From Buttiauxella agrestis ATCC 33320 (GTDB lineage Bacteria > Pseudomonadota > Gammaproteobacteria > Enterobacterales > Enterobacteriaceae): a stretch of DNA of 64,000 nt. A program made the translations under genes and the position numbers. Of this stretch, positions 4,306-54,259 are shown one piece after another. The stretch's first letter is position 1, and each line of letters begins with the position of its first letter. The stretch covers positions 1 to 64,000 of the forward strand of contig NZ_JMPI01000013.1 in assembly GCF_000735355.1 (NCBI RefSeq), read 5' to 3'. The notes beneath the pieces are model-generated. The model made no database searches. It worked only from the letters and a program-made list of their open reading frames with translations, and was not told the origin of the DNA.

Positions 4306-5490
4306 TTACTTCACGCGCACTTTCGTGGCGACTAACAATGCTGTTAACAACATTAAACTGCCTGACAGGACTAATGGTGAAAGCAGGCCGAGATTATCCA
4401 ACGCCAGGCCGCCAATCGCGGCACCACAGGTATTTGCCAGTTGAATGACAGCGACCTGAATCGACCCTGCTTTTTCTGCCTGATCCGAAAGTGAGCGGGT
4501 GATCCAGGTTGACCATCCAACTGGAATCAGAGCAAAGGCGAAGCCCCAGATAATGGCGATAGCAGAAGCAACAATTTTATCCGAACCCCACAATACCAGC
4601 GTGATTGCGCTCAATGCCAGAATCAGCGGTGCGATAGCCAGAGCCGCTTTCAGCGAGCGTCTGAGAAATACTGCTGAAAGTGAAGTGCCGACAAAACTAG
4701 CGATACCAAAACTTAACAGCACCAGCGTTAGACCGTCGACGTCGAATCCGGCCAGCGTCGTATAAACAGGGCGAATATAAGTGAAGAAGGCAAACTGGCC
4801 TGCAAAAGCAGTAAAAATAGCGGCCATACCTGCCAGCACGCCAGGGCGTTTAAGCAGGCCAAACATATTTTGCTTCTTTTGCGTCGTTTCGCCAGGCAGC
4901 GACGGTAGCGCTTTCCATACCCAAATAATGCAGGCCACACCCATCAACGCAGCGCCGTTAAATACATTACGCCAGCCGATAATCCCCCCCAGGAAACTAC
5001 CTAACGGGGCGGCGATCACCAGCGCGATGGACACCGCGCCAAAGATAACCGACAGCGCCTTTGGCACCGTGCGCGCTGGAACCAGACGCATAGTTAAGGA
5101 GGCAGACATCGCCCAAAAACCACCTAGCGCAACCCCCAGACAGGCGCGGCCAATCAACAGCATCGTGAAGTTTTCAGCAAACGAAACCAACAGGCAGGAG
5201 AGGGTCAGCAGGATGGCAAACAGAAACACCACAAAGCGGCGGTCGGTTGAACGAATAACGCTTGTGACAAAGAGACTGGCAAACATCGCGACAAAAGCGG
5301 TGACCGTAACGGATTGCCCGGCAACACCTTCGGATATTCCCAGTTCTTGTGCCATTGGTGTTAGCAGACTGACAGGCAAAAACTCCACGGTAATCAAACA
5401 TGCCACGCAAAATGCTACGGCAAATACCGCTGACCAATTAGGCCGCGTGACGGCCCTCGGTTCGTTTATCCCATCTATATGCTCACTCAT
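4306..5490 (-). CDS. nepI: Purine ribonucleoside efflux pump NepI (MFS)
   Basis: A 394-residue, 12-TM major facilitator of the DHA1 family that is close to E. coli NepI (YicM) along its length; NepI exports inosine, guanosine and 6-mercaptopurine by proton antiport. Recognisable stretches are [19 protein letters not shown] (near residue 15), the loop-2/3 motif with [23 protein letters not shown] and [13 protein letters not shown] chose the ATG at 5490 because it gives the family N-terminus MSEHIDG; a GTG nine bases upstream (5499) is in frame. The start region is a 13-bp tandem duplication that also creates a short upstream ORF (see findings). In E. coli this gene sits elsewhere, so its place next to tau is an accessory arrangement. 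Confidence 0.9.
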
Positions 5491-5594
5491 TATGCTCACT
5501 CATTTTTCCACCCGGCACGATTTTCAATTTAGCCGCGTAGTGTAGCACCGTAAGTGTGACGCATTTAACGTTTTGGCAACTTTTTCGCAGTCAT

Positions 5595-6308
5595 CTAAAA
5601 ATCCAGCTCAAGGGCAAAACACAGATATGCCATCAGCGGTGCACAAAACTGAAATTGCTCAGTGCAAAAATTGATAGCACCTGGTTTGCATAGCTCTTCA
5701 AAATCGATATTTTTGACGGCGATAAAGTCTTTACGTTTCAATTCAGTTAATAGGGGATGCGTTTTTTCATAACCCTTTGGCGGGCGAATTAAACTATCCC
5801 CATCCATGATAAAACCATGGTCTTGCAGTGTTTTTAACGCCTTTTGATACGCGTTAGGATTTTCATCAATACAGGCTCTAATTGCATTTAAAGCTTTTGA
5901 CTCCGGATGCCAGATACCCGCGGCAATAAAGCAACCTTCCTCAGCAATATGCAGATAAAATCCTGGGGCATGGACATCCTTCCCCTGGAAATGACGAAAC
6001 TGGATGCCAACATTAGTTTTGTAGGGTGTTTTATCTTTGCTGAAACGGCTGTCCCGCTGAGGGCGCATAAGACTGCCACCGACTTTTTTCGGCACGGCAG
6101 TGAGCTTCGATGAAATGGCAAGAATACCGGGCTGCATCTGCTCGATAAACCGCAGGGCAGGGGTTCTGACAACATGCTCGTATTCATCCTGATGGTCTTT
6201 AAACCAATCACGCGAATTGTTTTGCGCGAGCTTGTTCAGGAATTGCAGGCTTTCCGGGCTAAAAGTAGTACCTGCCAAATTTGGAGTTTTAAGTGTTTTA
6301 GTCGCCAT
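5595..6308 (-). CDS. DUF2461 (TIGR02453) family protein
   Basis: A 237-residue protein of the DUF2461 family, widespread in bacteria and fungi and without an established function. The diagnostic region is visible: FSPESLQFLNKLAQNNSRDWF near residues 17-37, then GSLMRPQRDSRFSKDKTPYKTN with a conserved RFSKDKTPYKT core near 78-99, and GFYLHIAEEGCFIAAGIWHPES near 116-137. It is transcribed towards nepI, about 100 bases away, and faces the AT-rich gap before hsdM. No catalytic motif is apparent. Confidence 0.85.
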   Translation of the reverse strand: MATKTLKTPNLAGTTFSPESLQFLNKLAQNNSRDWFKDHQDEYEHVVRTPALRFIEQMQPGILAISSKLTAVPKKVGGSLMRPQRDSRFSKDKTPYKTNVGIQFRHFQGKDVHAPGFYLHIAEEGCFIAAGIWHPESKALNAIRACIDENPNAYQKALKTLQDHGFIMDGDSLIRPPKGYEKTHPLLTELKRKDFIAVKNIDFEELCKPGAINFCTEQFQFCAPLMAYLCFALELDF

Positions 6309-6604
6309 TACCGATGAACCTTTATTAGTAGCAATAGTACGGATGTTAGCAGAGTCTTAGTATTCTAAATACTGATGATTTGAATCAGTTAGTAGGTTTT
6401 TAATTTATTAAATAATTTTAATTTATTGTTTATTGGCTAATTCATTATGTATTTATATTAATAATGAAAAAATTATTTCATTTTATTTCATTACTTCAAA
6501 AATACCTTCGAGAAATCTTTTTCAAAACGATATAAATCAATGTAGTGAGATATAAAATGACTTATATGTAAGCGCATCTATTCTTCACATTCCCGGCTTC
6601 ATTA
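6309..6604. other. AT-rich intergenic region, probable left edge of the restriction-modification island
   Basis: About 300 bases, very rich in A and T (especially 6360-6500), between the divergent DUF2461 and hsdM genes. It must hold both promoters, but no single -35/-10 pair stands out. I found no copy of the ileX 3' end or of any integrase gene here. The change in composition relative to both sides fits an island edge. Confidence 0.5.
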
Positions 6605-8947
6605 ATGTCTAATATTAATTTTTCTCAAACGGCTGCCTTTATTTGGTCAGTCGCTGATTTGCTTCGTGGTGATTTTAAGCAGTCCCAGTATGGGCGCGTA
6701 ATTCTTCCTTTTACTTTGCTACGCCGACTTGAGTGTGTTTTGGCACTCAGCAAAGATGCGGTGGTTGAGGAAGCACAGAAGCTGAAGGCCAGCCCATTAC
6801 CGGAAGAAGGGCGAGAGAAGTTTCTATTACGTGCAACCAAAGGCTTATCATTCTTTAATACCTCACCGATGGATCTCGATAAAATGGGGCAGAATGACAT
6901 TAAAGAAAACCTGGAAAACTATATTCAATGTTTCTCAAAGGATGCGCGTGAAATCTTTGAGTACTTCAAATTCAGCGAATTTATAGGCCTGCTGGATGAT
7001 GCAAACCTGCTGTTTAAAATCGTTAAAAAATTCGCGACTACCGACCTGAGCCCGAAAGCCATTTCTAATCATGAAATGGGCCTGGTGTTTGAAGAGTTAA
7101 TCCGCCGTTTTGCTGAGAGTTCAAACGAGACGGCCGGGGAGCACTTTACCCCACGCGATATCGTGCGCTTAACCACTTCGCTGGTGTTTATGGAAGATGA
7201 TGAAGCGTTGTCGAAAGACGGCATCATCCGCACCATTTACGACCCGACCGCCGGTACCGGTGGCTTCCTCTCTTCTGGCATGGAATACGTGCACGAACTG
7301 AACCCAAAAGCGGTGATGCGTGCATTTGGCCAGGAGCTGAACCCGGAATCTTACGCCATCTGTAAAGCCGATATGCTGATCAAAGGCCAGGACGTTAGCC
7401 GCATCAAGCTGGGCAACACGCTTTCCAACGATCAGCTCCCGCAGGACCAGTTCGACTACATGCTTTCTAACCCGCCGTTTGGCGTGGACTGGAAAAAAAT
7501 CGAAGGCGAGATTAACGACGAGCACCAGCAAAAAGGCTTTAACGGGCGCTTTGGTCCTGGCCTGCCGCGTGTGTCTGATGGCTCGCTGCTGTTCCTGATG
7601 CACTTAATCAGCAAAATGCGTGATAGCAGCAATGGTGGGCGTATCGGGATTATCCTCAACGGTTCACCACTGTTTACCGGTGGGGCGGGTAGCGGTGAGA
7701 GCGAAATCCGCCGTTATATTCTGGAAGCCGATTTGCTGGAAGGCATTGTCGCGCTGCCGACGGATATGTTCTACAACACCGGCATCGCGACTTACGTATG
7801 GATTTTATCGAATAAGAAAGCCCCGGAGCGTAAGGGCAAAGTTCAGCTGATTGATGGCACCAATCTGTGCGGCAAAATGCGTAAGTCTTTAGGCTCCAAG
7901 CGTAATCTGATGGGCGAGGATGATATTAAGCTTATCACCCGTACCTTTGGTGAGTTTGAGGTGGTGGATGCGACTTCTCTTGAAGAGTTGGGGCTGGAGA
8001 AAGCGCCGGAGCAAAAATCTAACCGTGGCCGCCAGTCTGCAACTGCCAAAACCGAAGCACCGAAAACCTTCGCCAGCAAAATCTTTAACAGTACTGATTT
8101 TGGTTACCGTCGCCTGACCATTGAGCGCCCGCTGCGTTTGTCCGCACAGGTGACCGATGAAGCGATTGCCACTCTGCGCTTTGCCACCAAACCACTGAAT
8201 GCACCGATGGAACGTTTATACGAAGAGTTCTCCGCACAGTGGCAAGACGAAAACTACGGCGACTTTATTGATATCGAAGTTGAAGCCCGTGCGATTATCA
8301 AAGCTGAATTTGCCGAGCTGAAAGAGAAGCAGATTAAAGACCTGCTGGATAGCAAACTGTGGCTGGCTCAGCGTGCATTGATGAATAAGGCGCAGCAAAT
8401 CCAGACGGCGTTGGGCGCTAAGGCTGGTGGTCAAGCGCAAGTGAGTGATGACTTTAATGAGTTCCAGTTAACACTCAAAGGTGCGATTAAAACCGCTGGC
8501 GTTAAGCTGGATACCAAAGAGAACAAACAGTTTATCGACTCCATCACCACGAAAAACCCAGCCGCCGAACCGGTAGTGAAAAAGGTGCTGAAAGAAACCG
8601 CCCAACCACTATATGGATCGTATGAATACCTGGGAAAAGTGGTGGAGTTCGAGCAGGATGGCGATCTGCGTGATAACGAAAATGTGCCACTAAACCCTGC
8701 TATTGCCACCAGCGTTCTGATTGAGAACTACTTTAAAGCCGAAGTCTTACCGCATGTTCCCGATGCCTGGATCAACGCCGATAAGCGCGATGCCAAAGAC
8801 AGCGAAGTGGGGATAGTTGGTTATGAAATTCCATTTAACCGTCATTTCTATATTTATCAGCCACCTCGCCCGCTGGAAGACATTGATGCCGATCTGGATG
8901 CCGTAAGCTCTGAGATTATGAAGCTGCTGCAGGAGGTACACTCCTGA
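6605..8947 (+). CDS. hsdM: Type I restriction-modification system methyltransferase subunit HsdM
   Basis: A 780-residue N6-adenine methyltransferase subunit of a type I system. With HsdS it methylates the host site; with HsdR added it restricts unmodified DNA. An HsdM_N helical domain covers about residues 8-140. The catalytic domain has SAM motif [10 protein letters not shown] at 213-221 and the adenine motif IV NPPF at 289-292. After about residue 490 comes a further region of almost 300 residues, so the protein is much longer than the roughly 500-residue HsdM of the EcoKI family; this long form is known in many type I systems. The start at 6605 is followed at once by the family N-terminus ([19 protein letters not shown]). 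Its stop overlaps the hsdS start by one base (TGATG). Confidence 0.95.
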
Positions 8948-14389: not shown

Positions 14390-14465
14390 TGGTGGCCCCT
14401 GCTGGACTTGAACCAGCGACCAAGCGATTATGAGTCGCCTGCTCTAACCACTGAGCTAAGGGGCC
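14390..14465 (-). tRNA. ileX: tRNA-Ile2 (CAU anticodon, ileX)
   Basis: A 76-nt tRNA on the minus strand, starting GGCCCCTTAGCTCAG and ending in an encoded CCA. The acceptor stem GGCCCCT/AGGGGCC (one G-U pair), the D-loop, the anticodon CAT in GACTCATAATC and the TTCAAGTC T-loop are all present. A CAU anticodon in this body is the minor isoleucine tRNA whose C34 is changed to lysidine by TilS to read AUA; it is not a methionine tRNA. Its position next to mug and rpoD is that of ileX in E. coli. The 3' end points toward the hsd island. Confidence 0.95.
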
Positions 14466-22607: not shown

Positions 22608-22642
22608 TAATAAAAGCCACTCGCTTAGAGTGGCTTTTTTAT
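22608..22642 (+). terminator. Intrinsic terminator after uppP
   Basis: AAAGCCACTC-GCTTA-GAGTGGCTTTTTT: a 10-bp stem whose right arm runs into T6. It isolates the next operon. Confidence 0.88.
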
Positions 22643-22660: not shown

Positions 22661-22724
22661 GTAATGTAAAAAATTGTGCGAGCAATCACATTACGCTCCC
22701 TATTTACTGACTATTATCACATGC
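22661..22724 (+). promoter_or_regulatory. CRP-dependent (class II-type) promoter of the PTS/mannosidase operon
   Basis: A CRP box TGTGC-GAGCAA-TCACA (22675-22690) matches nine of the ten core bases of TGTGA-N6-TCACA. It lies inside a wider inverted repeat GTAATGT...ACATTAC (22661-22667 and 22688-22694). A -10 TATTAT at 22712-22717 predicts a start near 22724, which puts the box centre at about -41.5, the class II position. This fits catabolite control of a sugar operon. The predicted RNA begins about 18 bases before the leader ORF. Confidence 0.65.
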
Positions 22725-22741
22725 TCTATTCTGGAGGAAAT

Positions 22742-23242
22742 ATGTCAGCCATAGTCCGCCGATTTATCAGTTATTGCTTCTTCTGTCTGCTGGGGAAATT
22801 CAGCAGCGTGAAGTCGTTGCTGAGCGGACTTTGCTGTTTCAACTCGGTTCAGTCATTGAGTGTTGCTGACGAATCTTCTCAGGAAAATACCGAAGATGAG
22901 TTTTCCGGTGGTTGGTCCCGTTTGTGGGATTGTGCCGGTGAGAGTCTTTTTGCCTCCGCTCAACGTCTGCCGATCCCGAATGCTTCCAACACCGTAAATA
23001 CCACTATTCAGGCTCGTCTGGTTGCACAACTTCGCCATGAATTAGCGTTTAGCTTTACCACCCGCAGTGTGCATCAATTGCTGGTTTGCCATCGTTTGAG
23101 TGGCGAGTCAGATGCCAATTCAGATTCTCATAACCCATTGCTTTATTGCTTAAAAAGCACAATGCGCCTCACCGCCATTGTGCTTTTTTTGTTGTCCAAA
23201 TCCGACCCGAGAGAGAAACCATTATGTATATCGTTTGTGTAG
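22742..23242 (+). CDS. Unrecognised leader ORF upstream of the PTS operon
   Basis: A 166-codon ORF with a strong Shine-Dalgarno (CTGGAGGAAAT before ATG). I do not recognise it. The product would start Cys- and Ser-rich (MSAIVRRFISYCFFCLLGKF), has an acidic stretch near residue 45-53, and shows no clear fold. An in-frame GTG/ATG further upstream (22676) is less likely because it precedes the predicted transcript start. The last quarter crosses an intrinsic terminator (23149-23191), and the stop TAG at 23240-23242 lies 18 bases inside the IIB gene in another frame. It could be a true small protein, a leader peptide whose translation controls read-through, or a chance frame over a regulatory RNA. 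Codon choice does not look random, but support is limited. Confidence 0.45.
   Translation: MSAIVRRFISYCFFCLLGKFSSVKSLLSGLCCFNSVQSLSVADESSQENTEDEFSGGWSRLWDCAGESLFASAQRLPIPNASNTVNTTIQARLVAQLRHELAFSFTTRSVHQLLVCHRLSGESDANSDSHNPLLYCLKSTMRLTAIVLFLLSKSDPREKPLCISFV
23149..23191 (+). terminator. Intrinsic terminator (attenuator candidate) before the PTS genes
   Basis: A perfect 12-bp stem AAAAGCACAATG / CATTGTGCTTTT with loop CGCCTCACCGC is followed by T-rich DNA. It stands between the CRP promoter and the IIB gene and inside the leader ORF, so the operon needs either read-through or a second promoter downstream. Confidence 0.85.
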
Positions 23243-23538
23243 CTGCATGCCCAACGGGCGTCGCCCATACCTTCATGGCCGCTGAAGCGTTGGAAATCAC
23301 CGGCAAAAGCCGCGGACATGAAATCAAAGTCGAAACCCAGGGCAGTATGGGAGCAGAAAACGAAATTACCGCAGAAGATCTGGCGCGTGCAGATGGCGTG
23401 ATCATCGCCGCAGATGTCGCCATCAACAACAAAGAGCGCTTTGATGGCATGTTAAAACTGGAATGCAGCGTGGCAGACCCGATCAAATTCGGCGAGGCCG
23501 TCTTTGAAGCCATCGAGCAGGAGATAAATCATGGCTAA
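23224..23538 (+). CDS. PTS fructose-family transporter subunit IIB
   Basis: A 104-residue EIIB of the fructose/mannitol superfamily. It receives phosphate from IIA and passes it to the sugar bound by IIC. The phospho-cysteine is Cys9 in VAACPTGVAHTFMAAEAL, the standard Fru-IIB signature. The domain ends with KFGEAVFEAIEQEI. I chose the ATG at 23224 because it starts the signature region and has GAGAGAAACC just upstream; a longer open frame from 23146 includes the terminator. It overlaps the IIC gene by eight bases. IIB and IIC are separate proteins here, as in the E. coli Frw and Fry systems, while E. coli MngA is a fused IIABC. Confidence 0.93.
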   Translation: MYIVCVAACPTGVAHTFMAAEALEITGKSRGHEIKVETQGSMGAENEITAEDLARADGVIIAADVAINNKERFDGMLKLECSVADPIKFGEAVFEAIEQEINHG

Positions 23539-24658
23539 ATTTCAGGGTGGCGGAACGAAATCCTCCACGGGCACCGAAGTGAAAAACGCCATCATGACGG
23601 GCGTATCGTACATGCTGCCGTTCGTCATTGCTGGTGCGGTAATTATGGGCATCGCCCGCATCGGGGCTTCGATGTATGGCATTGATAACATATGGGATGC
23701 CAGCCATGAACAGGCTGCGAGCCTTGTCGTACAGATGCTGCATAAGTTCGACGGCTTTGGCGGTTTAGCGCTGTCCTTGATGTTGCCGATTGTCGCGGGT
23801 TACATCAGCTTTGCGATTGCTAATAAACCCGGCATTGCTCCGGGTATGGTGGGTGGCCTGCTGGCAAGCAACCTGGGAACCGGCTTCCTTGGCGCGCTGG
23901 CGGCCGGTTTTGTGGCAGGTTATGTGGTGCGATTGTTGACGGCAAAAGTGAAGCTCCCACGCTCGCTGGCCTCGGCAGGGCCGATTTTTATTCTGCCCGT
24001 GGGCGGCACGTTGCTGACCTGCATCATCATGGCTTTTGTGATTGGCACGCCGCTGGCGGCGCTGAATCGTGGCATGGAGGCGTGGCTACTGGCGATGTCC
24101 GGCACTAACAAAATTATTCTCGCGGCGGTGGTCGGTGGCATGGTTGGTTTCGACCTCGGCGGCCCGGTCAACAAAGCGGCGGTAACGACCGCCATGGCAC
24201 TGCTGGCATCCGGTATTTACGACCCGAACACGGCGGCTCAGGTGGCGATCATCATTCCGCCCATTGGCCTTGGCGTGGCTTCACTCATCTGGAAACATCG
24301 CTTCCCGGAATCATTGCAGGAAGCGGGTAAAGCCTCAACGCTGATGGGCTTGATTGGCGTCTCAGAAGGGGCGATTCCTTTTGCGCTGGCGAATCCGAAA
24401 ATCATTGTTATCAATGTGGTCGGCACCGCGACGGGCGCGGCAATGGCGGTCGGTTTAGGGGCGGTAAACCACGCACCAATCTCTGGTTTTTATGGTTGGC
24501 TGGCGGTCGATGGCTGGCCGATTTATATCCTGTCGATAGCCGTGGGTTCCGCGATAGTGGCGCTAGGTTCTTTGCTGGTGTTTCGTCAGTCCAATATTAC
24601 TAATACCAAAGAAGAAAAAGCCGTAGCTCCCGCACCGAAATTTAAAGTTAGCCGCTAG
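23531..24658 (+). CDS. PTS fructose-family transporter subunit IIC
   Basis: A 375-residue membrane permease of the Fru family, with about 8-10 TM segments. Family landmarks are VKNAIMTGVSYMLPFVIAGA (near residues 17-36), the FAIANKPGIAPGMVGGLLA loop (about 94-112), GGPVNKAAVTTAMAL near 210-224 and GVSEGAIPFA near 277-286, where the Glu is expected to contact sugar. The C-terminal tail is polar and ends KFKVSR. Start overlaps IIB. A short hairpin (AGCCG-CTAG-CGGCT, 24649-24662) lies over the stop codon and could partly reduce downstream transcription. Confidence 0.94.
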   Translation: MAKFQGGGTKSSTGTEVKNAIMTGVSYMLPFVIAGAVIMGIARIGASMYGIDNIWDASHEQAASLVVQMLHKFDGFGGLALSLMLPIVAGYISFAIANKPGIAPGMVGGLLASNLGTGFLGALAAGFVAGYVVRLLTAKVKLPRSLASAGPIFILPVGGTLLTCIIMAFVIGTPLAALNRGMEAWLLAMSGTNKIILAAVVGGMVGFDLGGPVNKAAVTTAMALLASGIYDPNTAAQVAIIIPPIGLGVASLIWKHRFPESLQEAGKASTLMGLIGVSEGAIPFALANPKIIVINVVGTATGAAMAVGLGAVNHAPISGFYGWLAVDGWPIYILSIAVGSAIVALGSLLVFRQSNITNTKEEKAVAPAPKFKVSR

Positions 24659-24783: not shown

Positions 24784-27390
24784 ATGAAAACTGTTCATCT
24801 GGTGCAACATACTCACTGGGACCGTGAGTGGTATTTTACTGAGAATGATTCAAAAGCCGTACTTTATTATTTCATGGACGATTTATTACAGCGCCTTGAA
24901 GAAGATATAACGTTAGGGCCATTTGTTCTGGATGGGCAAACCGTCGTTATTGAAGACTATTTAAGTGTCGCGCCTCATCAGGAAACCCGGTTGCGGAAAT
25001 TAATCGAACAGGGTCGAATCGTGACAGGCCCGTGGTATACGCAGAGCGATTTTCTGGTGGTGGGGGCTGAATCAATTACCCGCAATTTACTGCTGGGGCA
25101 GGCCGATTGCCAGCGCTTTGGGGGCAAGATGCCAATTGGTTATGTGCCTGATTCTTTTGGTCAAAGTGCGCAGTTACCGATGTTTTTGCAACAGTTTGCT
25201 ATCGACTATGCGGTCATCTGGCGCGGCTGGAGCGAATTTAATGTGCCGCACAGTGAGTTTAGCTGGCAGGCCGCCGATGGCAGCAAAGTCACTACCGCAG
25301 TGCTTCCATGGGGTTACGGCTGCGCGAAATGGCTGCCGGAAGAGCCTTGCGCCGGGCAGAAAGCGCTGGAACCTATTCTGGCGAAACAGACTCGTTTTTC
25401 ACTGACCGACCACGTTTTGCTGCCCAATGGCAATGACCAGTCGCCGTTTGAATACCGCGTGCCAGCGATGCTTGACCAACTCAATCAGCAGCAGGATGAA
25501 TATCGTTTTGTACGCAGCAGTTTCAGCCAGTTTTTCCAGGCGCTGGAAAAGACTAACGTCCCTCTTCCACTGTACCAGGGCGAGCTTATCAGCCCGAAAT
25601 ATATGCGTATTCACCGCGGTATTTTCTCAACCCGCGTGGATATCAAACAGCTGAATGCGCAACTCGAACAGACACTCAGCCAGCATCTCGAGCCATTGCT
25701 GGCCGTTAACTGGCGGCTTGGCCTGCCGTACCCACAAAGTGCGGTCGAGAGTATCTGGCGCGAAGCGATGAAATCCCATGCTCACGACAGTATCGGAGGC
25801 TGCAACTCAGACCGGGTGAATGCGATGGTCAAAAACCGCCTTGAGTCCGGCCTGGAAATGGCTAACCAACTTATTGACCTGAATATGAAAATGCTGGCTG
25901 AAGGGATTACGGCGCAGCAGGATGGCAAGAAAATCATCATCTTTAACGCGCGTCCGCAAAGGAGTCATGGCCTGGTTGAATTGACCATTTTCACACCCGA
26001 GCAAGATTTCCGCGTGGTCGATAGCGAAGGCAAAGAGTGCCGTTGGCAAATCGTCGAAGAAAGCCGTCAGGATATGTCGATCATTGTTCAGGAGTTATCG
26101 AACAGCACTGAAACCACCTGGTATCGCAAATGCCTGTTACTGCTCGAAGTGACCGATATTCCGGCGTGCGGCTATCAGACTTTTTATCTACAAGAGGGCG
26201 TTCGCGCAGGCTTCCTCCAGCAGACTCAACCGGTGGTAAAACTGGAAAATGAATGGCTGCGGCTGGAAGCGAATAAGAAAGGGATCCTGACGCTTACCGA
26301 CAAACGCAGTCAGCAAATTTACCCTCACATTTTGCAACTGGTTGATGGTGGCGACGCGGGCGATAACTACAACTATTCACCACCGTTTGAAGACTGGCTT
26401 ATCAATAGCGATGAATTCCTGACGTCGCTCCATGGTGTACAGGGGCCGTTGCAAAGTAGCCTGACGCTCAACTGGCAGATGGCGGTGCCGCAGAATTTAG
26501 CCGCTCGTCAAGAACGCTGCGCCAATGCTGAACTCGATATCACGATGATCGTCACGCTGGCACACAGCAATGCCTGGTTGGATGTGCAGATCAGCGTCAA
26601 TAACACCGTTTGCGATCACCGGGTGCAAGTATTGCTCCCGACAGGCGTTGCCCAGCACGTGCACTTTGCCGATCAGCCATTTGGGCTGATTGAGCGTCCA
26701 AACCTGCCGCCAGAAATGGCGGTCTGGCAGGATGAACAGTGGACCGAAGCACCGGTTGCGCTTTATCCGATGCAAAGTCAGGTGATGATGCACGACGCGC
26801 AACGCGGATTATCTACGGTGACCAAAGGGTTGCGTGAATACCAAATTCCTGAGGACCGCCAGGATGTTATCGCGGTGACGTTGCTGCGCAGCGTTGGCTG
26901 GCTCGGACAGGCGAATATGCCTTATCGTCCAGGTCGTGCGTCCGGCATGGTTTTGCCTTCGCCTGATTCGCAAATCCAGGGCATGCACCATTTCAAACTC
27001 AGCATACTGGCTATGAATAACGGCGCAGATAGCGTTTTTTGGCGTGACGTTGAACGCGCCCGCGGCAATCTTCACGCCTGGCTTGCTACCGGCTGGTCAC
27101 GTTTTCGTACTAATCCACACGGCCACGTTTTCCCGCCGCATTACAGCGTCTTAAGCTGGGATACCGAGCTGCATTTCAGCACTCTGAAAAAGGCGCAACA
27201 AAGCGATGCGCTGGTGGTGCGCGGCTGGAGCCCATCGACACAAACTCAAGCGTGCGGAGTTATCAGCACAAATGGCGACGTCACATCCGCAACGCTTGCA
27301 GAAATCCCGCTGAAAACCCCGCAGGACATAGTATCAGGCTGTGCGCCAGTCACTTTTATCATCGATTTTGAAGGGGTGAAAACATGCTAA
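24784..27390 (+). CDS. Glycoside hydrolase family 38 alpha-mannosidase, MngB-like
   Basis: An 868-residue cytoplasmic GH38 enzyme related to E. coli MngB (mannosylglycerate hydrolase, 877 aa), which cleaves the phosphorylated alpha-mannoside brought in by its PTS. Zinc ligands are visible as His11 and Asp13 (HTHWDREW), Asp123 in GYVPDSFGQS, which is also the expected nucleophile, and His334 in KSHAHDSIGG. Domains run in the usual order: catalytic alpha/beta barrel (to about 265), middle three-helix domain (about 270-365), then the beta-rich C-terminal domains. No signal peptide, so the substrate is intracellular. It overlaps the EI fusion gene by seven bases. 2-O-alpha-mannosyl-glycerate is the first guess for the substrate, but the transporter is of a different make from MngA, so another alpha-mannoside is possible. 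Confidence 0.9.
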   Translation: MKTVHLVQHTHWDREWYFTENDSKAVLYYFMDDLLQRLEEDITLGPFVLDGQTVVIEDYLSVAPHQETRLRKLIEQGRIVTGPWYTQSDFLVVGAESITRNLLLGQADCQRFGGKMPIGYVPDSFGQSAQLPMFLQQFAIDYAVIWRGWSEFNVPHSEFSWQAADGSKVTTAVLPWGYGCAKWLPEEPCAGQKALEPILAKQTRFSLTDHVLLPNGNDQSPFEYRVPAMLDQLNQQQDEYRFVRSSFSQFFQALEKTNVPLPLYQGELISPKYMRIHRGIFSTRVDIKQLNAQLEQTLSQHLEPLLAVNWRLGLPYPQSAVESIWREAMKSHAHDSIGGCNSDRVNAMVKNRLESGLEMANQLIDLNMKMLAEGITAQQDGKKIIIFNARPQRSHGLVELTIFTPEQDFRVVDSEGKECRWQIVEESRQDMSIIVQELSNSTETTWYRKCLLLLEVTDIPACGYQTFYLQEGVRAGFLQQTQPVVKLENEWLRLEANKKGILTLTDKRSQQIYPHILQLVDGGDAGDNYNYSPPFEDWLINSDEFLTSLHGVQGPLQSSLTLNWQMAVPQNLAARQERCANAELDITMIVTLAHSNAWLDVQISVNNTVCDHRVQVLLPTGVAQHVHFADQPFGLIERPNLPPEMAVWQDEQWTEAPVALYPMQSQVMMHDAQRGLSTVTKGLREYQIPEDRQDVIAVTLLRSVGWLGQANMPYRPGRASGMVLPSPDSQIQGMHHFKLSILAMNNGADSVFWRDVERARGNLHAWLATGWSRFRTNPHGHVFPPHYSVLSWDTELHFSTLKKAQQSDALVVRGWSPSTQTQACGVISTNGDVTSATLAEIPLKTPQDIVSGCAPVTFIIDFEGVKTC

Positions 27391-29864
27391 CCCTCGACTT
27401 TATTTGTACGTTACCCAACGGTATTCATGCGCGTCCGGCCAGTGAAATTGAACAACGTACGCAACGATTCAACGCAGCTATTACGCTGATTAACCGGAGC
27501 AAAAAGACTCAGGTCGATGCGAAAAGCGTGCTGGGGATGATTGGTGCGGATATCACGCAGGGCGACTCGTGCCAGTTTCTGATTGAGGGCGACGATCAGC
27601 AGGCCGCGTTTGAGTGCCTGGAAGCGTTTATGCGCAATGAGTTTGCTGATTGCGACGAACTGCTGGCACTCACACCGGAAACGCATAACCAGCCCCTACC
27701 GGTATTTATTGAGCACGCCCAACCGGTTTACCTCCGTGGCAATGGCGTCAGCAAAGGGATTGGACGTGGTGTCCCGTTGCATATCGATTCCGTGGATCTC
27801 TATGAACTCTCGCGCCATGAGCCTGAAACCGACATTCCCCGCCAGCAGCAACAATTGCTTGAGGCCTGGGCGTTAACGCAAAAAAACCTGAATAGCGCGG
27901 ATCCCGGTGCCGCACAGGTTTTGGCGGCTCAGCTTAAATTGCTCAGCGATCCGGCATTCAAATCATGCCTGCTCTCGCACGCCAGCGCACGTAACGCATT
28001 ACAGGCGATTGCGCTCACGGCACAGGCTTTGAGCCAGCCGTTGCTCAACAGCAGCAGCCAGTATCTGCGCGAGAGGGTTATCGACATTCGCGATCTCTGT
28101 CAGGGAATTGCCGCTAATCTGCTGGGCAGACCCCTGGAAGCGCAAATGACGCTGACACAAGACAGCATTGTTATCTGCAACGGTACGCTGACGCCCGGTC
28201 AATTCCTGCGGCTGCGTAACCCGCATCTTAAAGGCATCGTGATGGGCGACGGCGGGGAAACTTCACACACCGTAATTCTGGCGCGTTCCTTCGGTATTCC
28301 CTTGCTGTGTGGAGTGACGCAGCGTGAAGGACTGACGCGCACTGCCAGCATGCTGCTCCTCGACAGTCGCTACGGTGTGCTGGTGGCAAACCCGGATGCG
28401 GCGATGGAAAACTGGTATCGGCTGGAAACGCAAAAACAGCAGGCGATTGCACGGCGGAGCGCACCGCTGCGTGAACAGCAAGTCGCGACTTCAGATGGGT
28501 CAACCTTTAGCGTGCTGGCGAATATTGCGCTGGCCGTTGAAGCGCAAAGCGTCTTCGCCCATGGTGCCGATGGCGTGGGACTGTTCCGCACGGAAATGTT
28601 GTTCTGTGAACGCAGCCTACCACCCGATGAAGAAGAACAATATCAAGCGTATAGCGAAGTATTGAAAAGTGCCGAGGGTAAAAAAATCACCATTCGTACG
28701 CTGGATATTGGCGGCGATAAACCCTGTGAATTCCTCGATTTACCGAAAGAGGAAAACCCCTTTTTGGGCTATCGCGCCGTGCGCATGTACCCGCAATTCC
28801 ACGAGATTTTCACCACTCAGGCACGCGCATTACTTCGAGCGAGCGCCGTCGGGCCAGTGAATATTATGGTGCCGATGGTAGCGACACTTGCAGAAATCCA
28901 ATGGCTGCACAGTCAGTTTGCTCATGTTGCGCAAACCTTGCAGCAGGAAGATATTCCGATTGGTGAATGGCACCTCGGCATCATGGTTGAAGTGCCTTCT
29001 ACGCTCTATCTTCTGGAAAAAGCCGCTAACTATCTCGATTTTGTTTCTATCGGCAGCAATGACCTGGCGCAGTATTTTCTCGCTTGCGATCGCGGGAACC
29101 CTTACGTACGGCATCTGTATGACTATCGTAATCCCACATTTTTAGCGTTGATGCGAGATATCACGCGCCGTGCGCAGGCGGCAGGATTGGCGATAAGTCT
29201 GTGTGGTGAAATGGCAGCAGATAAACAAATGTTACCGCTGTTAGTCGGCATGGGATTGACGCAATTGAGCATGGCAGCCAGCGCCATCACGCCATGTAAA
29301 GAAGCGCTCAAAGTGCTGGATGTGCAGCAATGTCGGCAGTTGCTTGAAACGGCGATAGGCTGTGACACCAGCGAGGAGGTCACAGAATGCGTCGAGCATT
29401 TCATGCGAGCGCAGTCGCACAAACCCGTATTGGCGAAGGAGTTGCTGTTGCTGGATAAAACAGTAAGCAGTAAAGAAGAAGCCATCAAATTGCTGACCGA
29501 TAACCTGGAAGTGCTGCAGCGGGTCGTTTCGGGCGCGTTGGCTGAACGGGCCATCTGGGAACGTGAGGCCGTATTCTCCACGGCTCTCGGTTTTTCCGTG
29601 GCAATTCCGCACTGTAAATCGCCACATGTTTTGCACAGTAGTATTTCTCTTTTGCGCGTAAAATCGCCGCTGAGTTGGGGCGAAGGTGTTGATGTGCAAC
29701 TGGTTATCATGCTGACGGTGAATGATCAGGAGCAGGATAATCACATGAAGATTTTCTCGCGCCTGGCCCGGAAACTGATGCACAGCGACTTCCGTGAACA
29801 GTTGCAAATGCTGTCAGACGCCTCTGCGATCACCGAACTTTTATCGGCTGAACTGGCACTTTAA
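27384..29864 (+). CDS. Fused PTS phosphotransferase (HPr - enzyme I - EIIA fructose type)
   Basis: An 826-residue multiphosphoryl transfer protein of the FryA/FrwA (PtsA) type. The HPr-like domain covers residues 1-90 with His15 (NGIHARPAS). Enzyme I follows, with the phospho-His295 in GDGGETSHTVILAR, the PEP-binding region with GLFRTEMLF near 405 and the GIMVEVPSTLYLLEKAA and IGSNDLAQYFLA motifs of the PEP barrel. The C-terminal Fru-type EIIA (about 685-826) has His743 in VAIPHCKSP. Phosphate should pass from PEP through EI, HPr and IIA to Cys9 of the operon's IIB, making uptake independent of ptsHI. The start lies inside the mannosidase stop region (ATGC overlap). Confidence 0.94.
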   Translation: MLTLDFICTLPNGIHARPASEIEQRTQRFNAAITLINRSKKTQVDAKSVLGMIGADITQGDSCQFLIEGDDQQAAFECLEAFMRNEFADCDELLALTPETHNQPLPVFIEHAQPVYLRGNGVSKGIGRGVPLHIDSVDLYELSRHEPETDIPRQQQQLLEAWALTQKNLNSADPGAAQVLAAQLKLLSDPAFKSCLLSHASARNALQAIALTAQALSQPLLNSSSQYLRERVIDIRDLCQGIAANLLGRPLEAQMTLTQDSIVICNGTLTPGQFLRLRNPHLKGIVMGDGGETSHTVILARSFGIPLLCGVTQREGLTRTASMLLLDSRYGVLVANPDAAMENWYRLETQKQQAIARRSAPLREQQVATSDGSTFSVLANIALAVEAQSVFAHGADGVGLFRTEMLFCERSLPPDEEEQYQAYSEVLKSAEGKKITIRTLDIGGDKPCEFLDLPKEENPFLGYRAVRMYPQFHEIFTTQARALLRASAVGPVNIMVPMVATLAEIQWLHSQFAHVAQTLQQEDIPIGEWHLGIMVEVPSTLYLLEKAANYLDFVSIGSNDLAQYFLACDRGNPYVRHLYDYRNPTFLALMRDITRRAQAAGLAISLCGEMAADKQMLPLLVGMGLTQLSMAASAITPCKEALKVLDVQQCRQLLETAIGCDTSEEVTECVEHFMRAQSHKPVLAKELLLLDKTVSSKEEAIKLLTDNLEVLQRVVSGALAERAIWEREAVFSTALGFSVAIPHCKSPHVLHSSISLLRVKSPLSWGEGVDVQLVIMLTVNDQEQDNHMKIFSRLARKLMHSDFREQLQMLSDASAITELLSAELAL

Positions 29865-29894: not shown

Positions 29895-31118
29895 ATGACC
29901 CTAACCACTCCCTTCCCGGATGCATCACAAAGCCACCGCCAACCGTTGGCCGTTCTGGCATGCGCCTTTTTCCTTTGGGGCTGCCTGACCAGCATCAACA
30001 GTGTATTGATTCCGTTTTTCTATCACTACTTTTCACTGACCTACCGTGATGCGATGCTGGTCAACGTGGCGTTCTATCTGGCTCCCTTCGTGGCGTGTTT
30101 GCCTTGTTCGGCGCTTATGGCGCGGCTGGGTTACAAAATGACGCTGATACTGGCCGTGGGGTTTGCCGCTCTGGGTTGTTTGCTGATGGCGCTGGCGATG
30201 TGGATGGTGACGTTTTCGCTGATACTGGCGGCGATATTCATCCTGGCCATGGGGGTCGCAGCAATGCAGGTGGTGGCGAATCCCTACGTCACGCGGTTAG
30301 GGCCGCCAGAAACGGCGGCGGGACGGTTGAGTCTGGCCTCGGCGATTAACTCCACGGGTACCACGGTTGCACCGCTGCTGGTGGCAAGCCTGTTGGTCAT
30401 CTTCCCGGTAAGTCTGGGTGCGCATCAGGAGCCAGTACGCTGGCTTTTCCTGGGGCTTGCCGCTCTGACATGCGGATTAATTGTCTTGTTGTATACCCGC
30501 CATCTGCCTGATTTTCGTCAGTTACAGATGCAGCGATTGAGCCAGCGCACCAGTGCGTTATTCGGCGAGTCTCACTTTGTGATGGGGTTGCTGGCGATTG
30601 GCACCTATGTTGGCGTGGAGGTAGCGATTGGGACGACCGCCCTGAGTTATCTCAGCGATAAGTCGCTCGGGAGCCTCGATTTGCAACAGGCGACTTCGCT
30701 GATTGCAATTTACTGGGGCGGTTCGCTGGCCGGGAGAATGTTGTACGGCCTGGTTGCGCATCGCGTGAATGCTATCTGCGCATTCCGTATTGCGACCGTC
30801 ATGGCAGGCATCCTGGTGATCGCTGCTATAGGGTTCGCAAACCTGTTGGGAGGCGTGTGTTTACTGCTGGTGGGTTTAATGAATTCGCTGATGTACCCGG
30901 TGATTTTCGCCCAGAGCGTGCGCAATCTGGGCGATAAAACCAGCCTTGCTTCTGCTTTTCTAATTATGGCGGGAATTGGCGGTGCAATACTGCCGTTCCT
31001 GCAAGGCTGGATGGTAGACGTCATCGGCTTGCGGTTAAGTTTTTTACTGCCTTGCGCTGGGTATTTAGTGTTGATGGGGGTTGGCCTGAAAATGCGCCAA
31101 CCATCGGCAATCAGCTAG
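29895..31118 (+). CDS. MFS transporter of the fucose permease (FucP/FHS) type
   Basis: A 407-residue 12-TM major facilitator of the fucose-galactose-glucose:H+ symporter group. Seen: [19 protein letters not shown] in TM1, the [20 protein letters not shown] stretch after TM4 (near residues 133-152) that is typical of the group, and a central loop near 200-225. It is the last gene of the operon, 30 bases after the EI fusion. A proton symporter beside a PTS is redundant for the same sugar, so it may take up a breakdown product or an alternative sugar, or export. Its stop overlaps the 3' end of cca by eight bases on the opposite strand, with no terminator visible between them. Confidence 0.88.
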
Positions 31119-39287: not shown

Positions 39288-39426
39288 AGCGGCTTCCATA
39301 ATCTTACGGGATTGTCTTACGGTATTAGCATTAATTGTAATGCCTGCGAGCCTCCTTAGAAACCCGAAATGTTCTAAGGTTTGGCGTTGCCAGAGAAAAT
39401 CATCGGCGTTATAGTAAGTCTGCTTA

Positions 39427-39567
39427 TTCTCAGGGCGGGGTGTAACTCCCCACCGGCGGTAAATCAGCGAACGCTGAAAGCCCGCGAGCGCTCCAGAGCA
39501 ATCTGGAGGTCAGCAGATCCGGTGTAATTCCGGAGCCGACGGTTATAGTCCGGATGGGAGAGAGTAA
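39427..39567 (+). promoter_or_regulatory. FMN riboswitch (RFN element) of ribB
   Basis: The conserved RFN landmarks are present in order: CAGGGCGGGGTGTAACTCCC, CACCGGCGGTAAA, AGCCCGCGAGC, the variable stem around CTCCAGAGCAATCTGGAG, GGTCAGCAGATCCGGTG, and the closing CCGACGGTTATAGTCCGGATG...GAGAGAG. It lies about 100 bases before ribB, so FMN binding should lower ribB expression. The expression platform (39568-39660) is AT-rich, without an obvious long hairpin plus T-run, so control may act on translation or Rho. Confidence 0.97.
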
Positions 39568-39665
39568 CGACTAAGCTCAAGCTTTTAAGCCTGCTCACGT
39601 TATTTTTATAGCTCCTAAGACTGCCCTGATTCTGGTAACCATAATTTTAATGAGGTTTTTTTACC

Positions 39666-52125: not shown

Positions 52126-54101
<1,976 letters not shown>

Positions 54102-54135
54102 TAAAATGAGTTAACAAACCTGTTTTTCTTTGACG

Positions 54136-54179
54136 GCGCGATGCGGCATACCCCCTATGCTGACATCGCGCTTTTTTTA
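54136..54179 (+). terminator. Intrinsic terminator after nanQ
   Basis: The stem GCGCGATG / CATCGCGC encloses a second inverted pair (GCATA/TATGC), and T7 follows. It separates the nan operon from the regulator gene. Confidence 0.85.
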
Positions 54180-54259
54180 CCGCCACAGACTTGCTACGCT
54201 TTGACCCATTCGATATTGCAGGCTTTTTGCCACCTTTCGCCCTACAGAGCAGGAAATTT

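Follow-up and report, generated by a model that had tools for sequence, protein, structure and literature searches.

Most known cases of translation-coupled transcription attenuation are biosynthetic operons with short leader peptides. In attenuators of the trp/his type, translation of the leader is combined with an early RNA hairpin that could pause RNA polymerase, and in pyrBI-type attenuation, where pyrL encodes a short peptide, pausing at U-tracts is sensitive to UTP. The leader ORF of the Escherichia coli pyrBI operon (PyrL) is reported to be translated across an intrinsic terminator located before the structural genes; to keep the hairpin from forming, the ribosome must be tightly coupled, and this coupling is incomplete, the pyrL hairpin having lowered expression about 18-fold even in the wild-type (PMC5021804). 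In arfA and brfA, a terminator or stem-loop lies in the coding region before the stop codon, and a stop-less mRNA results (PMC8012679, PMC6881298). The leader of a sugar operon can also have an RNA-level function, as reported for Vsr217, a small RNA from the malK 5′ UTR of Vibrio (PMC8265627).

We analyzed a locus in the window (the whole stretch of 64,000 nucleotides under study) where a leader ORF crosses an intrinsic terminator ahead of a fructose-family PTS operon, an arrangement like that of pyrBI. In contrast to pyrL, the leader is a conserved gene with 128–137 codons before the hairpin; the operon is a catabolic PTS operon of the CRP type and not one for pyrimidine synthesis; a covarying stem-loop (P1) is present, and the leader stop codon often overlaps the next gene. 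A terminator inside the reading frame is shared with arfA and brfA, but no sequence relation to them was found when 18 leader members were compared with Pfam and NCBIfam, the terminator here additionally stands between the gene and an operon that follows it, and lineages differ in the frame that crosses the hairpin. With trp/his-type attenuators the locus shares predicted leader translation and an early hairpin with the potential to pause polymerase; unlike them, it has no run of codons for a single amino acid shared by the lineages (alignments inspected by eye) and no competing antiterminator among the local structures scanned, and its ORF crosses the terminator. Vsr217 belongs to a different operon, regulated by MalT, and is described as a small RNA rather than as a translated conserved gene (PMC8265627). 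We propose, with a probability of roughly 0.6, that leader and terminator together form a pyrBI-like translation-coupled transcription attenuator of a CRP-driven PTS/mannosidase operon.

The window reads as Buttiauxella-like, the close named relatives of its leader ORF being those of B. izardii (86% protein identity), B. agrestis (81%), and Buttiauxella sp. B2 (81%). The gene order begins with what is presumably uppP, followed by a terminator-like site (22612–22638, from a promoter/terminator scan), a CRP-like box, a −10-like hexamer, a Shine-Dalgarno sequence (CTGGAGGAAAT), the leader ORF with its internal terminator, and the gene for IIB. The leader ORF (22742–23242, forward strand) starts with ATG at 22742, comprises 166 codons (137 ahead of the terminator), and ends with TAG at 23240–23242; a strong Shine-Dalgarno sequence and an open frame of this length had been noted in the preliminary description and were found as stated. 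Family scans and locus comparison identified the genes that follow on the same strand as those for PTS fructose-family IIB (23224–23538), which is the first structural gene, PTS fructose-family IIC (23531–24658), a GH38 alpha-mannosidase (24784–27390) that is mannosylglycerate hydrolase-like (below the cut-off of that model), an HPr-EI-IIA fusion (27384–29864), and a GluP/FucP-like MFS sugar transporter (29895–31118). Among the 13 further loci that were read, the transporter gene was matched in 3. A Pfam scan of six window proteins revealed no BglG-family antiterminator protein of the kind that BglG/LicT-type PTS antitermination involves. Elsewhere in the window, Rfam models matched an FMN riboswitch (39422–39569), an STnc500-like sRNA (54089–54259, reverse strand), and a tRNA (14393–14465, reverse strand).

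The leader DNA was matched over its full length in 8 of 12 genomes of the genus, namely the window's own and seven relatives at 82–87%. A family-level protein search of 295 genomes gave 16 leader matches, of which 15 were kept (3 Buttiauxella and 12 others); the match in genome G258 (E 3.5e-4) was rejected as false, having an internal stop and sitting within another long ORF. A further relative, 35% identical, is located ahead of IIB on a Chimaeribacter arupi plasmid. In the record of this plasmid, the one annotated record examined, whose gene table is incomplete, no feature lies under the leader, and the gene may be widely missed by annotation. Two other searches took no account of the leader ORF. 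The exact hairpin pattern occurred in 22 of 392 family genomes, at one site each (control, 0), and all 22 also carry the leader ORF, six of them being new. An IIC protein search at E ≤ 1e-140 retrieved 24 of the 392 genomes: the same 22, G747, in which leader and hairpin are divergent, and G745. Leader and terminator were present in 23 of these 24; in G745 a contig end truncates the locus about 120 nt before the match, so that it could not be judged. An order-level profile search, whose sample overlaps that of the family and in which scoring was limited to 9 candidates in those listed genomes that had more, found the leader only in Buttiauxella (2 of 394 genomes). The resulting comparison set comprised 28 loci with nine genus labels (8 Buttiauxella, 18 other genomes, the plasmid, and G747), the plasmid locus being grouped under the genus of its near-identical genome locus. 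Two pairs are near duplicates (L040/L047 and L006/L007); L007 and L047 were omitted from the synonymous resampling of P1, the ORF structure scan, and the pause-motif scan.

A comparison of synonymous with non-synonymous change, which the preliminary description had proposed as a check, gave dN/dS values of 0.10–0.22 for the part of the ORF before the hairpin in all 28 Buttiauxella pairs, against 0.51–2.76, where defined, for the +1 and +2 frames of the same DNA. Values within other groups were 0.13–0.57; in genus g80, where changes are few, one pair at 0.57 was not separated from its off-frame values of 0.44 and 0.73. Frame-breaking changes in close relatives had been named as evidence that would count against the earlier interpretation; the ORF is open through the hairpin in 28/28 loci. 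Judged by its homologues and codon constraint, the leader ORF is a protein-coding gene under purifying selection; its protein is conserved, which makes it very likely to have a separate function. Outside Buttiauxella, leader proteins share about 30–43% identity with that of the window (12 loci), compared with 81–86% for IIB and 78–85% for IIC; hence the leader evolves much faster than its operon.

The protein belongs to no known family. That of the window matched nothing in Pfam, NCBIfam, or PHROGs, and 18 members compared with Pfam and NCBIfam gave scattered matches for one or two members at E 0.006–0.08, which we took as chance. No match to the Arf family was found among these 18, and thus no sign of kinship with ribosome rescue factors; a PDB search up to E 1 gave no relative. 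The most hydrophobic 15-residue stretch falls within the first 45 residues in all 28 loci. This, the purifying selection, and the presence of the leader in each of the 23 judgeable operons found via IIC would also suit an ordinary first gene, its protein perhaps membrane-bound, followed by a partial terminator that fixes its ratio to the PTS genes without translational regulation. An ordinary gene, however, would be expected to stop before the terminator in some lineages, which never happens in the 28 loci and three frames described below, and it would have no need of P1. We consider this explanation unlikely.

The CRP-like box (TGTGCGAGCAATCACA, 22675–22690, forward strand) is centered at 22682.5 and has 9 of 10 core bases. 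The −10-like hexamer TATTAT at 22712–22717 sets a predicted start site at about 22724, which places the box near −41.5 to −42.5, probably a class II position, and agrees with the figure of about −41.5 given earlier. A CRP-like box precedes the leader ORF in all 28 loci, its center lying 59.5–69.5 nt upstream of the start codon; in 19 loci it has 9 of the 10 core bases, and in the other 9 it has 8. When sites were compared singly with mononucleotide shuffles at a level of 0.05, 5 of 27 failed and one tied. The distance from box to predicted start site was 39.5–43.5 nt in 27/27 loci, a constancy partly built in by seeking the −10 element only near its expected place; in a free search, ties counted, a best-scoring −10 element of 25 of 28 loci gave a distance of 42.5–43.5 nt, and L044, L048, and L075 did not fit. 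The predicted leader promoter is absent from the list of the promoter scan because that scan requires a −35 hexamer and none is recognized here. The same scan, which misses some promoter types, showed no sigma-70-like site within the leader ORF, and a promoter between the terminator and IIB is unlikely because the gap is only 26–36 nt. In some lineages (L080, L084), genes for AraC-family regulators lie directly upstream, and other or additional control by such regulators is possible there.

The intrinsic terminator inside the leader ORF (23152–23190, forward strand) has 12 contiguous base pairs, as the preliminary description had it, followed by a one-base bulge and 2 more pairs, with a predicted energy of −17.1 kcal/mol and 7 T's. 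Its exact pattern occurs in one place in the window's own genome and in none of the reversed control. By sequence and fold, an intrinsic terminator stands between promoter-like elements and first structural gene in 28/28 loci, as in pyrBI-type systems, with energies of −16.2 to −20.6 kcal/mol and T-runs of 6–10. The minimum-energy fold of about 250 nt of context retained the terminator hairpin in every locus; the accompanying scan for competitors covered local hairpins. The arms AAAGCACAATG / CATTGTGCTTT are identical in 27/28 loci; in the remaining one, G747, a double-sided, compensatory change preserves one pair, and a G-U is present. Synonymous change among seven Buttiauxella sequences was 0.022 for hairpin codons, compared with 0.343 for the ORF before the hairpin and 0.322 for IIB. 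Judged from these alignments, conservation of the terminator is well beyond chance.

The stem (23152–23190) is almost invariant although the leader proteins are about 30% identical across lineages, a near-identity that, on the sequences compared, exceeds what attenuation or structure alone requires, and a role of the stem in binding RNA or protein is possible. A reading of the palindrome as a DNA operator was rejected: only the 3′ arm is followed by a T-run, and a double change in one lineage keeps a pair intact. The preliminary description had offered a short CRP-activated regulatory RNA as its alternative. Such an RNA, of about 467 nt and ending at the terminator, would act through its invariant 3′ hairpin with or without a protein product (a dual-function RNA). 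Promoter-like and terminator sequences of its own are present, the arms and U-run of 6–10 persist across lineages whose proteins are 29–43% identical to the window's, synonymous change in the hairpin is nearly absent, and Vsr217 offers a precedent of a sugar-operon 5′ UTR that is reported to yield a trans-acting RNA (PMC8265627). The loop is nevertheless the variable part of the hairpin, the leader region has weak Rfam matches and none at gathering score, and the dN/dS values are at odds with a non-coding transcript. Codon constraint thus weakens the RNA as a sole role and leaves room for a second one; overall we regard this explanation as very unlikely.

Conservation of the stem in sequence, and not in structure alone, could also reflect a regulatory leader protein with the terminator RNA (or PTS proteins) as its binding target, which would work autogenously as a factor for antitermination or termination. 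The protein does contain a conserved segment with R98, E100, L101, and F103 in the alignment, and in the loci listed no further ORF of at least 90 aa was noted on the same strand between leader and mannosidase gene, except that of an intron. Yet no RNA-binding family was recognized, a structure predicted from four Buttiauxella sequences was uninformative (mean pLDDT 37) and was set aside, and the protein diverges to about 30% identity whereas the hairpin does not. The chance that the protein is such a regulator appears slim.

The frame in which the ORF passes through the hairpin is frame 2 in 24 loci, frame 0 in 3 (members of one genus), and frame 1 in 1. When the last 90 nt and the hairpin were considered, the leader's own frame was open in 28/28 loci and the other frames in 11/56; with the last 30 nt and the hairpin, the counts were 28/28 and 31/56, related sequences being counted repeatedly in both cases, so that these are not independent trials. 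The hairpin alone is open in nearly every frame, with a stop in 1 of 84. The leader thus extends through the terminator in all 28 loci, as in pyrBI-type systems, and stops 13–127 nt past the T-tract. A terminator that precedes the stop codon in 28/28 loci, whichever frame is open, is equally the arrangement of a non-stop mRNA device like arfA or brfA, both of which are reported precedents (PMC6881298, PMC8012679): the protein would normally be tmRNA-tagged and degraded and would accumulate, with the operon responding, when ribosome rescue is saturated. Neither the Arf search of the 18 members nor the CRP-like promoter and operon context points to ribosome rescue, and we consider such a device quite unlikely; it would be compatible with translation-coupled attenuation.

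In the window, the leader stop codon lies inside the IIB gene, which starts at 23224, as had been noted. In 27 loci, the distance of the leader stop from the IIB start varies between −14 and +95 nt, a spread that leaves re-initiation without any conserved geometry, and a separate purine-rich Shine-Dalgarno sequence serves IIB. Of the earlier proposal that ribosomes on the leader permit read-through and then re-initiate on IIB, the first part is consistent with purifying selection, with an ORF that crosses the terminator in every locus, and with the covarying stem-loop P1; the second finds no support. In 27 of 28 loci, the T-tract and the IIB start are 26–36 nt apart. In the other (L088, genome G319), an insertion between terminator and IIB (approximately 5330–7247) encodes a group II intron protein of 463 aa with RVT_1 and GIIM domains; group IIC introns are reported to sit typically downstream of intrinsic terminators (PMC12350094).

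Little synonymous change was also seen in Buttiauxella codons 13–30 and 43–54. Inspection revealed a stem-loop, P1 (22783–22810, forward strand; core stem 22788–22794 / 22799–22805, loop GAAA), that occupies the same place across lineages despite quite different sequence. In an alignment of 28 sequences (27 distinct), its 12 pairs were standard pairs in 79.9% of cases, compared with 35.2–54.0% when one side was slid by 1–3 columns. Ten of the 12 pairs have changed on both sides (shuffles: mean 7.1, with 2/500 reaching 10), and the covariation score was 0.494, compared with 0.244 for shuffles (0/500 reaching the observed score) and 0.098–0.232 for slid registers; a measure of further pair types was not above shuffles (312/500). 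Against synonymous resampling, 244 of 312 pairs were formed, compared with a mean of 173 (sd 7.4, maximum 201 in 1,000), and other registers gave at most 175. A structure scan of the ORF, the third part of which used a wrong anchor motif for one sequence (L075), ranked P1 highest (z 9.6; best elsewhere 6.5, on a background raised by relatedness), and no other conserved local structure was found in the ORF by this local-structure scan. RNAalifold retains five pairs of P1, and in the window sequence an alternative hairpin at 22799–22824 is more stable.

The P1 core ends about 57–63 nt downstream of the start codon; a pause at this point would thus come just after the ribosome-binding site had emerged from polymerase. 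P1 is a candidate pause hairpin for RNA polymerase. A duplex 11–12 nt behind the RNA end is reported to make pauses about ten times longer (PMC12288461). The scan for pause-like motifs downstream of P1 had no control.

Promoter-like elements, coding, terminator, the frame through it, and P1 are read from the DNA; to these the attenuation model adds a pause, an effect of the ribosome, and a regulating signal that we infer. In this model, CRP-cAMP would start transcription at about 22724, and polymerase would make the leader ribosome-binding site and then P1, which probably holds it until a ribosome loads. A ribosome that trails closely across the approximately 400-nt leader would occupy the terminator stem, the hairpin would not form, and the PTS/mannosidase genes would be transcribed, IIB presumably being translated from its own Shine-Dalgarno sequence. 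If translation of the leader were weak, blocked, or slow, the hairpin would form and transcription would end. Terminated mRNAs would, by their sequence, lack a stop codon in the ORF, and their ribosomes would therefore have to be rescued. Published constructs bear on the ribosome effect: terminators within 100 bp of the start of a coding region are reported to work and later ones to be repressed wholly or partly by ribosomes, which catch up with polymerase at 100–200 nt, and one construct with a terminator late in the coding region retained 40% of reference termination (PMC4824070). Since the hairpin lies 385–412 nt into the ORF, these data lead us to expect more read-through when the leader is translated well and termination when it is translated poorly, as at pyrBI (PMC5021804). 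As for a regulating signal, pairing of Spot 42 (first 70 nt of the match) with the first 79 nt of the leader scored −24.9, with a shuffled mean of −24.6, and thus gave no signal. A more tentative extension, which we think rather doubtful, is that leader translation, pause hairpin, and terminator act as one switch tying the PTS operon to the availability and rescue of ribosomes; the level of the conserved, family-less protein would then report the state of the switch, and the mRNA would be stop-less when the operon is shut.

Translation-coupled attenuation is an already known type of mechanism. In our searches of open-licence literature, where most subscription papers are absent, we found no description of this leader or of the combination of a conserved long gene, a CRP-type PTS operon, a covarying internal hairpin, and read-through in whichever frame. 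If the proposal is true, a conserved gene of about 130 codons would show that carbon catabolic operons, too, can be gated by how well a ribosome keeps pace with polymerase, and an apparently unrelated gene would join the few known to carry their own terminator within the reading frame.

The operons of several relatives depart from that of the window. In L040, L081, L082, L083, and L085, the middle of EI (approximately residues 360–680, fewer in L085) is unmatched in the HPr-EI-IIA fusion, which is one ORF of 508–528 aa in four loci and two ORFs in L081. In L079 and L090, two loci of one genus, no match to the HPr-EI-IIA gene was found. The GH38 gene of the Chimaeribacter arupi plasmid (L040, 7597–10129) is annotated as two overlapping CDS and appears frame-broken. 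Several lineages have, after the operon, ORFs that resemble one another on visual inspection (L081, 11320–13395; L079, L085, L087, L090, and L040); that of L081 contains a calcineurin-like phosphoesterase domain, and the L040 gene is annotated as a metallophosphoesterase.
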